The translations under genes and the position numbers were made by a program. This document shows, piece by piece, positions 50,179-54,683 of a stretch of DNA of 64,000 nt (its first letter is position 1; the number at the start of each line of letters is the position of its first letter). Source of the stretch: Batillaria attramentaria (taxonomy: Eukaryota > Mollusca > Gastropoda > Batillariidae); assembly GCA_018292915.2 (NCBI GenBank), contig JACVVK020000169.1, positions 749,501-813,500 of the forward strand, written 5' to 3'. The notes under the pieces are model-generated. The model saw nothing but the letters and a program-made list of their open reading frames with translations, was not told the origin of the DNA and made no database searches.

Positions 50179-50182
50179 CCGG
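50179..50182. repeat. Target-site duplication CCGG, left
   Basis: CCGG immediately before TGTAG; matches 54680-54683. CCGG is a known Ginger1 target. Confidence 0.92.
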
Positions 50183-50413
50183 TGTAGCATCCGGTCCGGT
50201 CCCCCCTCTGAAGTAGTCCCCCGGGGGACCAATTCGTGGCAAAAACTGCTCTATAATGGTCCCCCCCTTAGACATCCAGCCTCGTTTTCGACTGGTCCCC
50301 CTGGGCGATTTTGGTCCCCCCTCGCATCCAAAATAGGCCCCCTCTCGAACTGGTCCCCCTCTTTTCTAACCAATGTAGAGCTATGTCAGTATTTATTTTT
50401 AACTTTATTGTTA
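50183..50413 (+). repeat. Ginger1 left terminal inverted repeat
   Basis: 231 bp, inverse copy of 54457-54679. Packed with about six GGTCCCC/GGGGACC motifs, including the palindrome GTCCCCCGGGGGAC, possible transposase-binding sites. Confidence 0.95.
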
Positions 50414-50659
50414 CAAAACTTTATTGTCCCCAAAAGCACAGGGCCATAGGAACATTTTTTTTTCTTTTTTTTTTCCCGATTTATGTGCTTGTTGTTATTT
50501 TTGTGTGTGTGAGATATATTTGTTTGGTTGTTGGTTCTTGTTTCTTTCAGTTGTTTTTTTGCATTGGTTCTTTTTTTTTTGTTTTTGTTTATGAGATGGT
50601 TGTACCGAATACTAAACATTATTACTAGAATTTCAAACAATAAATAAATAAGTCAATCA

Positions 50660-50691
<32 letters not shown>

Positions 50692-51283
50692 CCCCCCCCC
50701 CCCCACTCTCTATCTCTCTCTCTCTAGCAAAACCTGAAATAGACATTTACGTTCTTTGACAAGAAAAACTTTATTTCAAAAGGTATGTCCAGTCAAACTG
50801 TGTCAAAGAAACAAGAAATGAAACAAGAAACAGTTAATGAATAGCAAAGAGTTGCAACAGAAATTGTTAACCAGAGCGCTGTGCACTTTATAACGCAACA
50901 TAAATGTAAATTAATAAATTGTTAATCGCACATCTTGTCCTGAAATGAGCAAAATAATAACAATAGCAAAGTACAAAACAAACTTCTACCGTACTGTCTT
51001 TGCATGAAACGTCATCGAATGCATGAAAGTCCACATTTCCTGTCAATTTTTTTAAACTGGAAATAGCATTTAGAGAATAACATCAAAGACCAAGTATCTA
51101 ATATTTTCTATACAACGCCATAGAAAAATATTTCTTCAAAATTAAGTAAGTGTCCATGACATGAAAACTAGTTGCCACCTTTGGCTTTCAGCGTACTTCA
51201 AGTAGACAGTCAAGACTGAGTACCAGTGTCTCAAATCATGACGCTTGAAACAACAAAAACAGCAGAAGACTAACAGTTCTGGT
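50414..51283 (-). other. Ginger1 region between left TIR and transposase stop
   Basis: Low-complexity T-rich and CT-rich DNA (50663-50726) and AT-rich sequence; presumably the transposase 3' UTR. No gene seen. Confidence 0.55.
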
Positions 51284-51814
51284 CTAAGGAGTGACACAAA
51301 AAACAGGAGCAAAGTGATGTCCAAGATTCATTATATAAATTGCTCTGTCTGTTTTCAATGGGGCCGATTGCCAAACTGGCCCGTATTTCAGCCACCTAGG
51401 TTGTCGGCCTGGAGCCTCTCTTGTGAACACATACACGGGCGTGTCCAAGAGGGTGGCTGCAGCAAATATCTCAACCTCGGTGGCCCAAGTACGGTCGTTT
51501 CTCATGTTTGATGTCGCGACGTAATTTTCACGTGCGCTCGTTCCGTAGAAGCGTTTGTCATTCTTTTCAATCCAATCGCAAATGATATTTCGGAATTCCT
51601 TATATTTCGACTCAGTCCCCAAAACAACAAAGCTCACAGACCGGAAAAAACAATTCCCATCTCCTTTTACGCTAACGCTATCGAGAGGTGTAGCCGTAAT
51701 GTCAACTTCAACACTTTCCCTTGAGGGGTGCCGCCTGAAAAGTCTGGGGAAATTCAAACTGGAGGCCCGATCCTTTTGCCAGGCACCATCAACGGGGTGG
51801 AACTTCATTCTCAA
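51284..51814 (-). CDS. OTU-like cysteine protease domain, open frame of 176 codons
   Basis: The C-terminal part of the transposase remains open. OTU proteases cleave ubiquitin or similar chains. Seen: VKGDGNCFFRSVS (catalytic Asp/Cys loop), ATEVEIFAAATLLDTPVYVF, and LGHHFAPVF with the expected catalytic His near the end. The nearest upstream Met is at 51814, but the frame continues upstream into the repeat linker, so this is not a separate gene in origin. Confidence 0.85.
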   Translation of the reverse strand: MRMKFHPVDGAWQKDRASSLNFPRLFRRHPSRESVEVDITATPLDSVSVKGDGNCFFRSVSFVVLGTESKYKEFRNIICDWIEKNDKRFYGTSARENYVATSNMRNDRTWATEVEIFAAATLLDTPVYVFTREAPGRQPRWLKYGPVWQSAPLKTDRAIYIMNLGHHFAPVFCVTP

Positions 51815-52908
51815 TGGCGGCTGGCAAGAGGGGTCAGCCTGTGGATGATAGGAGGGGTCAGCCTGTGGAGCAGGGGAGGGGTCAGCCTGTGGATGATAGG
51901 AGGGGTCAGCCTGTGGATGATAGGAGGGGTCAGCCTGTGGAGCATGGGAGGGGTCAGCCTGTGGAGTATGGGAGGGTCAGCCTGTGGATGATAGGAGGGG
52001 TCAGCCTGTGGAGCATGGGAGGGGTCAGCCTGTGGATGATAGGAGGGGTCAGCCTGTGGAGCATGGGAGGGGTCAGCCTGTGGATGATAGGAGGGGTCAG
52101 CCTGTGGAGCATGGGAGGGGTCAGCGTTGTCCTGTGTACGATCATGGAACAATTTGACGTTGCTGATATTGTAGAGATTCTTCAGTATTTTCCCACTTTT
52201 AGTGTTCTTCAGTTGAAGTCGACCCTTCGGCAACACACTTATGACCTCATATGGCCCGACGAATCTTGGTGCCATCTTGCCTCCCATTCTGTGTACTCGT
52301 GCAGCATTGATGATTAAGACTTTGTCTCCGATGCGGAACCCGTGGTCATATGCACGCCTGCTGTCATAGTACTCTTTCTGCTTCTTCTGCGCCCTTGAAA
52401 TGTTTTCACCAATTTTGTTCTTGACTTCCTCGTGAATCCCCTTCATAGTGTCCATGATTTCTTCGTTCAGATCTTGCTCGTTGGCATCACCAGTGACGTC
52501 AAATGGTAGTTTTGCCTGCTCACCATACAATGCCAAAAAGGGTGAAAACTGTGTAGACTTGTGAACGGATGTTCGGTAGGCGAACAGGGCTGCTGGCAAG
52601 AGTTCATCCCAATCATCATTGTCTGTGATCTTTACCAAAGTGTCTTTGAGTGTCCTATTGTCCCTCTCCCGTTGGCCGTTCGTCTCAGGGTGGTAGGCCG
52701 AAGAAATGCGATGGTTGATATTGAAACGGTCGGTGAGAATATCAAGCGCAAAGTTAATGAACTCACGGCCTTGGTCAGTTATGAGGGAATCACAACGCGC
52801 CAAAGATGCAGATGGTTTCGTACATGAATCTGGCAACTTCCTCTGAACTCTTGCACGGGATGGCCTTGGCAACGGGAAACTTTGTAAAGTGGTCTGTGAG
52901 GGCAACAA
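51811..52908 (-). CDS. Integrase core (second Asp to GPY) and octapeptide linker, open frame
   Basis: 365-codon open stretch containing TDQGREF, NGQRERDNR, the RNase H-like C-terminal helices and RFVGPYEVI. It then enters the octapeptide repeats and shifts frame at about 51970, after which it reads PPMLHRLT-type peptide until it stops. Confidence 0.85.
   Translation of the reverse strand: MLPSQTTLQSFPLPRPSRARVQRKLPDSCTKPSASLARCDSLITDQGREFINFALDILTDRFNINHRISSAYHPETNGQRERDNRTLKDTLVKITDNDDWDELLPAALFAYRTSVHKSTQFSPFLALYGEQAKLPFDVTGDANEQDLNEEIMDTMKGIHEEVKNKIGENISRAQKKQKEYYDSRRAYDHGFRIGDKVLIINAARVHRMGGKMAPRFVGPYEVISVLPKGRLQLKNTKSGKILKNLYNISNVKLFHDRTQDNADPSHAPQADPSYHPQADPSHAPQADPSYHPQADPSHAPQADPSYHPQADPPILHRLTPPMLHRLTPPIIHRLTPPIIHRLTPPLLHRLTPPIIHRLTPLASRH
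51828..52130 (-). repeat. 24-bp coding minisatellite (octapeptide linker)
   Basis: About 12 units alternating two 8-residue versions (ADPSHAPQ and ADPSYHPQ on the minus strand), giving a 48-bp higher-order unit. One unit lacks a C (near 51970). Confidence 0.93.
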
Positions 52909-53114
52909 TGTACTGGTTACCTCTGTCAGTGACCTGCAAAGGTCCTATGATGTCCATTCCAACGAGGCTCCACTTCTTTTTGGGCACTGGGATGGGGGTG
53001 AAGCGGTGCTGCTGGCTTCTTTCTGCAAGCGTTCATGTTCTGGCACACACAGCATGATCTGCAGTAGTCTTCAACCTCCTGTTTCATTCCATGCCAGAAG
53101 TAACGCTCCAAGAC

Positions 53115-53472
53115 CTAGAGAGAAAAAAGAGTAATGAAATATTTATAAATACTATGTCTTAAAGATAACTGGTAGATAAACAGTGTGTGTGTGTGTGTGG
53201 GGGGGGGGGGGTGTGAGTGAGAGAGAGAGAGAGAGAGAGAGAGCCAGCAAAGGAAATGTCTTCAATCCGGAAAATGTCCGTTATATACCGAAGACATCGG
53301 CTATACCGGAAAATTTTACGTTATATACGGAGTCATCGGATATAACGTCCACCAGGACAAAAGTGGCCGCTATATCCGATGTGTTGGTTATACCAGACAT
53401 ACCAGAAACACACAAAACCTCGTTCCCATTCTAAAGCCTGTTAAAACTGGGAGTACAAAAACGGGTGCTCAC
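53115..53472 (-). other. Intron of the Ginger1 transposase
   Basis: 358 bp with donor gtgagc and acceptor ttttctctctag. Removal joins TYKK to VLERYFW exactly where integrases are continuous. Contains a GT/GA microsatellite (53181-53243) and two partly repeated blocks built of Ccggaaaa and ttatat motifs. Confidence 0.82.
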
Positions 53473-53738
53473 CTTCTTATAAGTCTTGTTCATCCCCAAA
53501 TGTCCTCCGCTCACATAGTTGTCATGAAACTCTTGCAATATCTCTGGAACCTGGTTCCTCTTTGCCACGAGGATTCCGTCGTGGTAGAGCACATCCTCTC
53601 GAATTGTGTATTTGCAGCAGTCTTTCTCAACTGTCTCTTTTTAACTTTAGTCACATCACGGTTTTTCCCCTTTCGCGGTCAGAGGGTAAGTGCCATTTTC
53701 AAATAGTTCAACACGTTGTCATACAGAGTGTCGTCCAT
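53473..53738 (-). pseudogene. Ginger1 transposase exon 1 (N-terminus and zinc-binding start)
   Basis: Starts MDDTLYDNVLNYLK and ends EFHDNYVSGGHLGMNKTYKK just before donor gtgagc. The frame changes about three times between 53700 and 53580, so it is not translatable as it stands. Confidence 0.8.
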
Positions 53739-53805
53739 GATGATAGTCAATGAAAAACGAAGACTGGTTGACGGAATGAATTGTCGTGTACTTATAATTA
53801 TAGGC

Positions 53806-53887
53806 ATGTTTGACACGAGTCACGTGACGTGTCAAGAAGCGTGGCGATGTTTGACACGAGTCACGTGACGTGTCAAGAAGCGTGGCG
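53806..53887 (-). promoter_or_regulatory. Two 41-bp direct repeats with CACGTG palindrome upstream of the transposase
   Basis: Units 53806-53846 and 53847-53887 each contain GACACGAGTCACGTGACGTG, a nearly palindromic motif around CACGTG, 70-150 bp before the transposase ATG. Possibly promoter elements. Confidence 0.5.
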
Positions 53888-53928
53888 ACCGTTTTCTCAT
53901 CCCACAAAAAAAAAAAAAAAGAGAAAAC

Positions 53929-54113
53929 AAATCTAAACTTTTAAAAGTGATTTAACTTCGTAGATTTGCCGTTCTATGTAGCCTATACTTTTGGTTTTTT
54001 AGTGGCGACCGTTTTCTCATCCCACAAAAAAAAAGAGAAAATAAAAAACAAAAGTATAGGCCACATAGAACGGCAAATCTACGAAGTTAAATCACTTTTA
54101 AAAGTTTAGATTT
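53929..54113. repeat. Long inverted repeat inside Ginger1 (65-bp arms)
   Basis: Arms 53929-53993 and 54049-54113 are near-perfect reverse complements with a 55-bp spacer. Lies upstream of the transposase ATG; a transcript would form a long hairpin. Confidence 0.92.
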
Positions 54114-54200
54114 GACACTGTAACCTTGACCCAGTTCAAGATCATCTTGAATAACATCTCTGTACAAAAATGAAAATAATTATACATATAACGAAAGAGG

Positions 54201-54201
<1 letters not shown>

Positions 54202-54284
<83 letters not shown>

Positions 54285-54352
54285 GTGCGTGCGTGCGTGA
54301 GTGAGTGTGCACGCGTGCGTGAGTGCGTGCATAATGTGTGTGTGTGTGTGTG
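54202..54352. repeat. (GT)n microsatellite inside Ginger1
   Basis: Long GT tract with GCGT interruptions, followed by a G/A-rich tract to 54418, near the right TIR. Confidence 0.95.
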
Positions 54353-54456
54353 TTTGAGAGATGGGGGGAGGAGAGAAAGTGTGGGGGCGAGAGAGAGGAG
54401 AGAGAGAGAGTGAGAGAGATCCAGAGTCACGTTTTCTACTGAGTTGACACACACTA

Positions 54457-54679
54457 TAACAATAAAGTTAAAAATAAATACTGACTACATTGGTTAGAAA
54501 AGAGGGGGACCACTTCGAGAGGGGGCCTATTTTGGATGCGAGGGGGGACCAAAATCGCCCAGGGGGACCAGTCGAAAACGAGGCTGGATGTCTAAGGGGG
54601 GACCATTATAGAGCAGTTTTTGCCACGAATTGGTCCCCCGGGGGACTACTTCAGAGGGGGGACCGCACCGGATCCTACA
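54457..54679 (-). repeat. Ginger1 right terminal inverted repeat
   Basis: 223 bp; lacks a 7-bp segment present in the left arm (near 50376-50383) and has one C fewer in a homopolymer. Otherwise nearly identical. Confidence 0.95.
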
Positions 54680-54683
54680 CCGG
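54680..54683. repeat. Target-site duplication CCGG, right
   Basis: CCGG immediately after CTACA, the partner of 50179-50182. Confidence 0.92.

Follow-up and report, generated by a model that had tools for sequence, protein, structure and literature searches.

Ginger1 elements are DNA-transposon relatives of the Gypsy and retroviral integrases, and in the description by Bao et al. they are defined by TGTNR ends, terminal inverted repeats (TIRs) of 40–270 bp, CCGG or CCGT target duplications and OTU or Ulp1 domains (PMC2836005). In the OTU-type families Ginger1-1_AC, Ginger1-1_HM and Ginger1-2_HM, a single transposase combines H2C2, DDE, GPY and OTU parts; Ginger1-1_AC, from Aplysia californica, is 4336 bp long with 2 introns and an OTU domain (PMC2836005). 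In 2010 the families were called small and the mechanism of their excision unknown (Bao et al., PMC2836005), and by 2022 the autonomous Ginger1 entries in Repbase numbered 23 (PMC10045372). To this known kind we assign a feature in a 64,000-nucleotide stretch of contig JACVVK020000169.1 of the snail Batillaria attramentaria (the window), where an initial annotation had placed a near-intact Ginger1 transposon at 50179–54683. We put a probability of about 95% on its being a single inserted copy of a cut-and-paste DNA transposon, of the OTU type of Ginger1, whose family has undergone a recent multiplication in this species. What looks new is the Batillaria family, together with its burst and the bias in its targets: among the open-licence PMC papers covered by our searches we found no report of the family, of an extended Ginger1 palindrome, of a bias towards short interspersed elements (SINEs) or of a Ginger1 transfer between gastropods. 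The family may already be listed in Repbase.

By direct reading the element proper runs from TGTAG to CTACA over 50183–54679 (4497 bp); the initial annotation had the ends right and counted both CCGG duplications into the element. CCGG is followed by TGTAGCATCC at the left, and GGATCCTACA is followed by CCGG at the right. The TIR arms, of about 231 and 223 bp, fall within the Ginger1 range, and TGTAG agrees with TGTNR. Aligned with each other, the arms are identical at 227 of 238 positions, with 8 gapped, in an alignment that also spans CCGG and three bases outside it. Five GGTCCCCC units and one GGGGGACC lie in the left TIR (mean 0.009 and maximum 1 in 5000 mononucleotide shuffles), and these units are candidate transposase-binding repeats.

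The single gene with zinc-binding, DD35E, GPY and protease parts described in the initial annotation was found, as were all the other traits on which it had based the Ginger1 identity. Exon 2 comprises 609 codons, uninterrupted in sister copies, and in one fetched copy the spliced transposase would have 698 amino acids. In a sister copy, Pfam Integrase_H2C2 reached 35.5 bits (exon 1) and 27.4 bits (exon 2) against a cut-off of 25.5 (E=3.8e-6), rve reached 31.1 bits (E=3e-7), slightly below its cut-off of 32.6, and SH3_Tf2-1 reached 21.6 bits, below its cut-off of 30; the D-to-E spacing is 35. The OTU domain matched on the window's open reading frame (ORF) with E=2.3e-11 and in the sister copy, within the same ORF as the integrase, with E=1.9e-10. 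Among solved structures, the best relative of the integrase part is the Ty3 integrase (7q5b, E=9.7e-19), in an alignment that reaches through the GPY region and sets RFVGPYE of the element against YVGPF of Ty3, followed by the integrase of PFV. For the OTU part the matches are to viral OTU domains (best E=7e-7) and to OTUD5 (6e-4). When the whole exon was searched, the repetitive linker between the two parts also matched circumsporozoite proteins, which we take as an effect of composition. Exon 1 contains Y, P, Y and Y in that order, a possible counterpart of the YPYY motif that precedes the zinc domain in Ginger1.

To place this copy among its relatives, we searched the assembly of B. attramentaria (715,342,989 bases in 863 contigs). 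A search with the left end of the element, of the kind proposed in the initial annotation, scored the best 40 of 890 first-look candidates and gave 40 matches at 99–100% identity covering at least 320 of 322 bases, along with one short piece. In 20 fetched regions we delimited 21 elements, 17 of them long (4.49–4.56 kb) and 4 short (1.68–1.71 kb); the short copies have the same ends and are deletion derivatives without the integrase part and without a second, smaller stretch. With the window copy included, the 18 long copies show pairwise substitution identities of 99.75–99.98% (mean 99.89%), and 11 of the 18 are identical to the majority across the coding columns compared. A protein search with exon 2 scored the best 72 of 3385 first-look candidates, and all 72 places encode a 100% identical, open and stop-free stretch of 609 amino acids. 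These are at least 72 copies, as compared with at least 5 for the Aplysia family and from at least 5 to more than 100 for the Hydra families (PMC2836005), and in this genome a full-length copy is not the uncommon find that it had been called. The true copy number is probably higher, because the highest contig among the places listed is C132 of 863.

The differences between left and right TIRs recur in the 17 other long copies, in which one end is 99.6–100% and the other 95.3–95.7% identical to the window's left TIR. For that reason TIR identity, from which the initial annotation had deduced recent movement, is no evidence for recency; the recency itself stands, and the evidence for it is the identity from copy to copy, about 0.1% apart. 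Several points weigh against the reading of a recent multiplication. The 18 long copies are biased to the young end because they were chosen as the best matches, and polishing with multi-mapping short reads could inflate the likeness among copies. The searches score the best candidates alone, so that the copy counts are lower bounds, and transposition activity is suggested by the near-identical copies. We looked in the Batillaria assembly for the window site without its insertion and found no such empty allele; the right flank is present once.

The insertions agree closely in their target. Of the family's insertions, 71 could be read at both ends, among them the one in the window, and 68 of these are flanked by identical 4-bp duplications: 66 are CCGG, one is ACGG (CCGT on the other strand) and one is CCGC, while the remaining three have a one-base mismatch. 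The TIR and CCGG boundaries, whose absence from other copies the initial annotation had named as evidence against it, are thus reproduced and are no product of chance. In a discovery set of 40 listed insertions, 33 were read at both ends (each member of a tandem pair counted on its own); the duplications are identical in 32 of these, CCGG in 31 and ACGG in one, and differ by a base in the remaining insertion. In a test set, 40 of a list of 50 were fetched and 38 were read at both ends; 36 have identical duplications (35 CCGG, one CCGC) and two differ by a base. The test list was drawn from the 72 exon-2 places, leaving out 6 that the discovery set already contained, 3 that belong to an array on contig C9 and the last 13. 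One of two probably allelic copies with the same left flank was dropped from some counts, the SINE count included, discovery sites without a readable right flank from the motif and SINE counts, and, from the discovery motif count, sites with a mismatch or a duplication other than CCGG as well as one member, the second, of the tandem pair.

The target preference reaches beyond CCGG into a longer palindrome with CCGG at its centre. The discovery flanks give R-W-S-CCGG-S-W-Y, with each of the six positions at p≤0.03 against 283 background CCGG sites, these values being uncorrected and computed on the same sites that suggested the motif. Fixed beforehand, the motif held in the independent set, where 35 new sites outscore 279 background CCGG sites (p=2e-11).

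Two arrangements of copies were seen apart from single insertions. Two short non-autonomous copies lie head to tail in direct tandem with one CCGG in common (L010:3844-7208), which is consistent with a second insertion into the target duplication made by the first. At C9:2626000-2641500 (L074, L075) there are at least 3 head-to-tail units of about 4330 bp, whose inner joints lack CCGG and fuse the left end, TGTAG, straight to a point within the right TIR; this array resembles a tandem duplication of the element more than separate insertions.

The insertions are biased to the promoter regions of tRNA-derived SINEs, mostly just 5′ of the A box. Within two such elements, SINE-A and SINE-B, lie 8 of 32 discovery insertions (p=1e-4) and 12 of 38 test insertions (p=4e-7), as against 10 of 279 background CCGG sites; only the test set is independent here, because the SINE references came from discovery sites. 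The background was drawn from 123 kb in all, in the window and around the first loci, and may for that reason misjudge the genome, of which all SINEs make up 5.55% (PMC10382545). With a background from the window only, the combined count is 20 of 70 versus 2 of 93 (p=8e-7). The tRNA-like head of SINE-B matches the Rfam tRNA model at 29.7 bits (cut-off 29). These homology counts replaced a crude scan with a simple A/B-box pattern (6 of 39 versus 10 of 286). tRNA genes as main targets were rejected: ARAGORN reported a tRNA-like structure, of unclear isotype, in just 2 of 39 empty sites, and the targets are therefore mostly SINE heads. Rfam microRNA, CrcZ, scaRNA-type and RAGATH-32 matches in the fetched loci were below their cut-offs and were dropped.

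What lies behind the bias can be read in two ways. The explanation that we consider probable, with appreciable doubt, is that SINE heads offer a good CCGG palindrome, or open or unmethylated DNA, with no link to the RNA polymerase III (Pol III) machinery. The preferred SINE sites have high palindrome scores, and the effect is weaker once conditioned on a motif score of at least 5. Part of it survives this conditioning in both sets, which argues against the palindrome as the whole cause: 11 of 25 test insertions (p=0.008) and 8 of 20 discovery insertions (p=0.03) lie in SINEs as against 6 of 42 background sites, and when exact target positions alone are counted the discovery value is 8 of 20 versus 2 of 42 (p=0.001). 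The usage of CCGG within SINE-A is also uneven, with 13 insertions at the site preceding the A box as against 1 at the site that follows the B box (background 3 versus 5, p=0.011), and one insertion lies at a 5S rRNA sequence (Rfam 37.9 bits, just under the cut-off of 38).

These last observations are what a guided integrase might produce. Ty3 integrates next to Pol III genes, and its chromodomain contacts TFIIIB (PMC8632968). By analogy with this homologous zinc-DDE-GPY integrase, that of the Batillaria family might be guided to Pol III promoters (SINE heads, 5S rRNA), and abundant SINEs with RWSCCGGSWY palindromes might then serve as safe landing sites; we hold this as a tentative and rather doubtful reading. 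Five SINE-B insertions lie just before the B box and one at the start of SINE-B, so that the preferred site adjoins the B box and not the transcript start, which counts against Pol III tethering and for the palindrome or open DNA. Ty3 also differs from the Batillaria element in being a long terminal repeat (LTR) retrotransposon with strict targeting, as opposed to a partial bias, and in having no OTU in the aligned part. The Dada DNA transposons likewise insert into multicopy small RNA genes, but with a transposase of another superfamily, 6–7-bp duplications and strict targets (PMC3706591). In comparison with Ginger1-1_AC and the Hydra families, the Batillaria family stands apart in its minisatellite linker, its 1.7-kb deletion derivatives, its extended palindrome and its SINE bias.

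The description 'near-intact' suits the structure of the window copy and does not suit its reading frame, which is interrupted. By reading, the exons of its gene hold six single-base insertion or deletion (indel) events and the intron two more, eight in all, and exon 1, exon 2 and the linker are each disrupted. That these are real mutations, and the copy a genuine pseudogene, is conceivable but the less favoured view: the indels are present in the sequence of a polished assembly, yet outside simple repeats they outnumber substitutions by eight to four, seven of the eight sit by eye in homopolymer runs, and in 11 of the 18 long copies the coding columns compared agree fully with the majority. 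Single-base indels in homopolymers are a type of error associated with PacBio long reads. The indels could thus possibly be attributed to assembly error, the B. attramentaria assembly having been built with PacBio long reads and then polished (PMC10382545).

Batillaria and Nucella are both caenogastropods. The best named match to the transposase outside Batillaria, among the matches listed, is the Nucella lapillus protein ACOMHN_038313 (P0002), on a 2.4-Mb contig, which is alike in transposase and linker motif, comes from a different snail lineage and is known here from the protein alone. The two are identical at 270 of 277 residues in the integrase part and 171 of 180 in the OTU part, or 441 of 457 (96.5%) with the linker excluded. 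By comparison, a well conserved photolyase domain reaches 84% identity between the proteins of the two genera, and 3-hydroxyanthranilate dioxygenase (HAAO) is identical at 134 of 166 residues (80.7%) over four exon segments between Batillaria and Babylonia, which like Nucella is a neogastropod. The PQADPS linker repeat is common to both transposases (76 of 84 aligned residues identical, 16 more positions gapped). Within a 237-residue core there are six differences, and at two of them the odd residue belongs to the Batillaria burst copies, the older Batillaria model, Nucella and three more distant relatives being in agreement. The Batillaria lineage split from that of Conus about 230 million years ago, according to the divergence estimate quoted in PMC10382545.

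These comparisons make it probable, though not proven, that horizontal transfer brought the family into the lineage of Batillaria, into that of Nucella or into both. Against it, the argument draws on protein identity and two host baselines rather than silent-site distances, and the 84% for photolyase may be somewhat low because the query was a fused model, only 94% identical to another Batillaria entry. Vertical inheritance, with the transposase kept alike by strong selection, would fit two caenogastropods and the constraint on active transposases, and a protein-level comparison with two baselines leaves it some room; we nevertheless regard it as improbable, since the transposase exceeds both host proteins in identity, the shared linker is of a fast-changing kind of sequence and a second Ginger1-like protein of Nucella is only 49% identical, over about half of the query.

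Annotated Batillaria proteins also carry the transposase, with matches at 100% among the database entries for B. attramentaria. Among 120 matches listed there are 30 (P0001, P0004-P0007, P0009-P0029, P0031, P0032, P0034 and P0035), of which 20 have a further Pfam domain, such as GPCR, MFS, TIR (here the Pfam domain) or photolyase; this count leaves out P0001, which consists of several transposase copies in a row. In 14 of the 30 the part derived from the transposase stops at residue 378–379, and a separate photolyase entry has no transposase domain. We rejected host-gene capture and take the fused proteins as gene models that probably read through insertions. In P0035 a diverged transposase keeps the two residues of Nucella and the distant relatives and has a poorly aligning tail; it may represent an older branch of the family within this genome.

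That the region is a decayed Gypsy LTR retrotransposon reduced to its integrase can be dismissed, for although Ty3 and PFV are the closest solved integrases and the weaker database relatives P0098 and P0100 have reverse transcriptase domains, the terminal repeats are inverted and not direct, CCGG duplications lie at both ends in 66 of 71 insertions, an OTU domain shares the ORF of the sister copy and no reverse transcriptase, the sign against its reading that the initial annotation had named, was matched by Pfam in the four ORF pieces scanned. Ginger2/Tdd was rejected on the CCGG target, in place of the AT-rich RTATAY, and on the presence of GPY. A viral vector and prokaryotic relatives were rejected as well: six peptide patterns had zero matches in viral contigs, and two pattern matches in prokaryotic genome contigs were neither of them relatives; of seven phage records matched, six were hit through the repetitive linker and one through a short transposase stretch.

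In the mechanism that we propose for this Ginger1 family, the spliced transposase would bind the GGTCCCCC-rich TIRs, its integrase-type DDE core would join the TGT...ACA ends to CCGG with a 4-bp stagger, and repair by the host would give rise to the duplication. The 1.7-kb copies would be moved in trans. The OTU part would strip ubiquitin off the complex or off host factors that act in repair or silencing. Target choice reads a palindrome longer than CCGG, with a bias to tRNA-derived SINE promoter regions. The window copy is ordinary within its family; the interest lies in the family's burst, in its probable horizontal transfer and in the bias of its target choice, for which tethering is plausible but unproven. 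Many identical, uninterrupted copies in a living animal offer material for studying excision by an integrase-type enzyme, and the same family offers material on the role of the OTU protease and on target choice. The probable transfer, across lineages split by some 230 million years, and the SINE bias are testable with existing genomes. Guidance by Pol III, if true, would help to explain amplification after horizontal arrival, and would suggest tethering to be an old property of the integrase lineage and not a specialty of yeast.

The element lies, as the initial annotation had it, between two divergent host genes, since kinesin motor exons are on the minus strand at 14.1–25.8 kb of the window and HAAO exons on the plus strand at 56.2–57.5 kb (Pfam). 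The likely start codon of HAAO is near 55.4 kb, by reading about 760 bp from the end of the element.

Table 1. Positions, in window coordinates, of the parts of the Ginger1 insertion.
Feature	Position	Strand	Evidence
Target site duplication CCGG (left)	50179..50182	.	Direct reading, alignment of ends, recurrence in other copies
Left TIR, TGTAG start	50183..50413	+	Self-comparison, alignment of ends
Exon 2: second half of H2C2, DDE core, GPY, linker, OTU	51284..53114	-	Pfam, copy alignment
OTU-like cysteine protease domain, GDGNC and HHF motifs	51311..51667	-	Pfam, solved-structure relatives
24-bp minisatellite, PQADPS-type linker between integrase and OTU parts	51829..52130 (approximate bounds)	-	Sequence, self-comparison
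GPY motif (RFVGPYE)	52246..52270	-	Sequence; Ty3 alignment; sub-threshold SH3_Tf2-1
Phase-0 GT-AG intron with simple repeats (inferred)	53115..53472	-	Sequence reading, copy alignment
Transposase exon 1 (start inferred; includes a YPYY-like region and the first half of H2C2)	53473..53738	-	Translation; H2C2 match in sister copy
Right TIR, CTACA end	54457..54679	-	Self-comparison, alignment of ends
Target site duplication CCGG (right)	54680..54683	.	Direct reading, alignment of ends, recurrence in other copies

Two minor observations concern repeats within the element and its relatives. Upstream of the gene, window positions 53806–54114 contain a perfect 41-bp tandem duplication and a near-perfect 72-bp inverted repeat. 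A 62%-identical OTU-Ginger1-like transposase (P0003) has another linker repeat, PSPQGDAG, at the equivalent position, and such repeats may arise repeatedly between the integrase and OTU parts.

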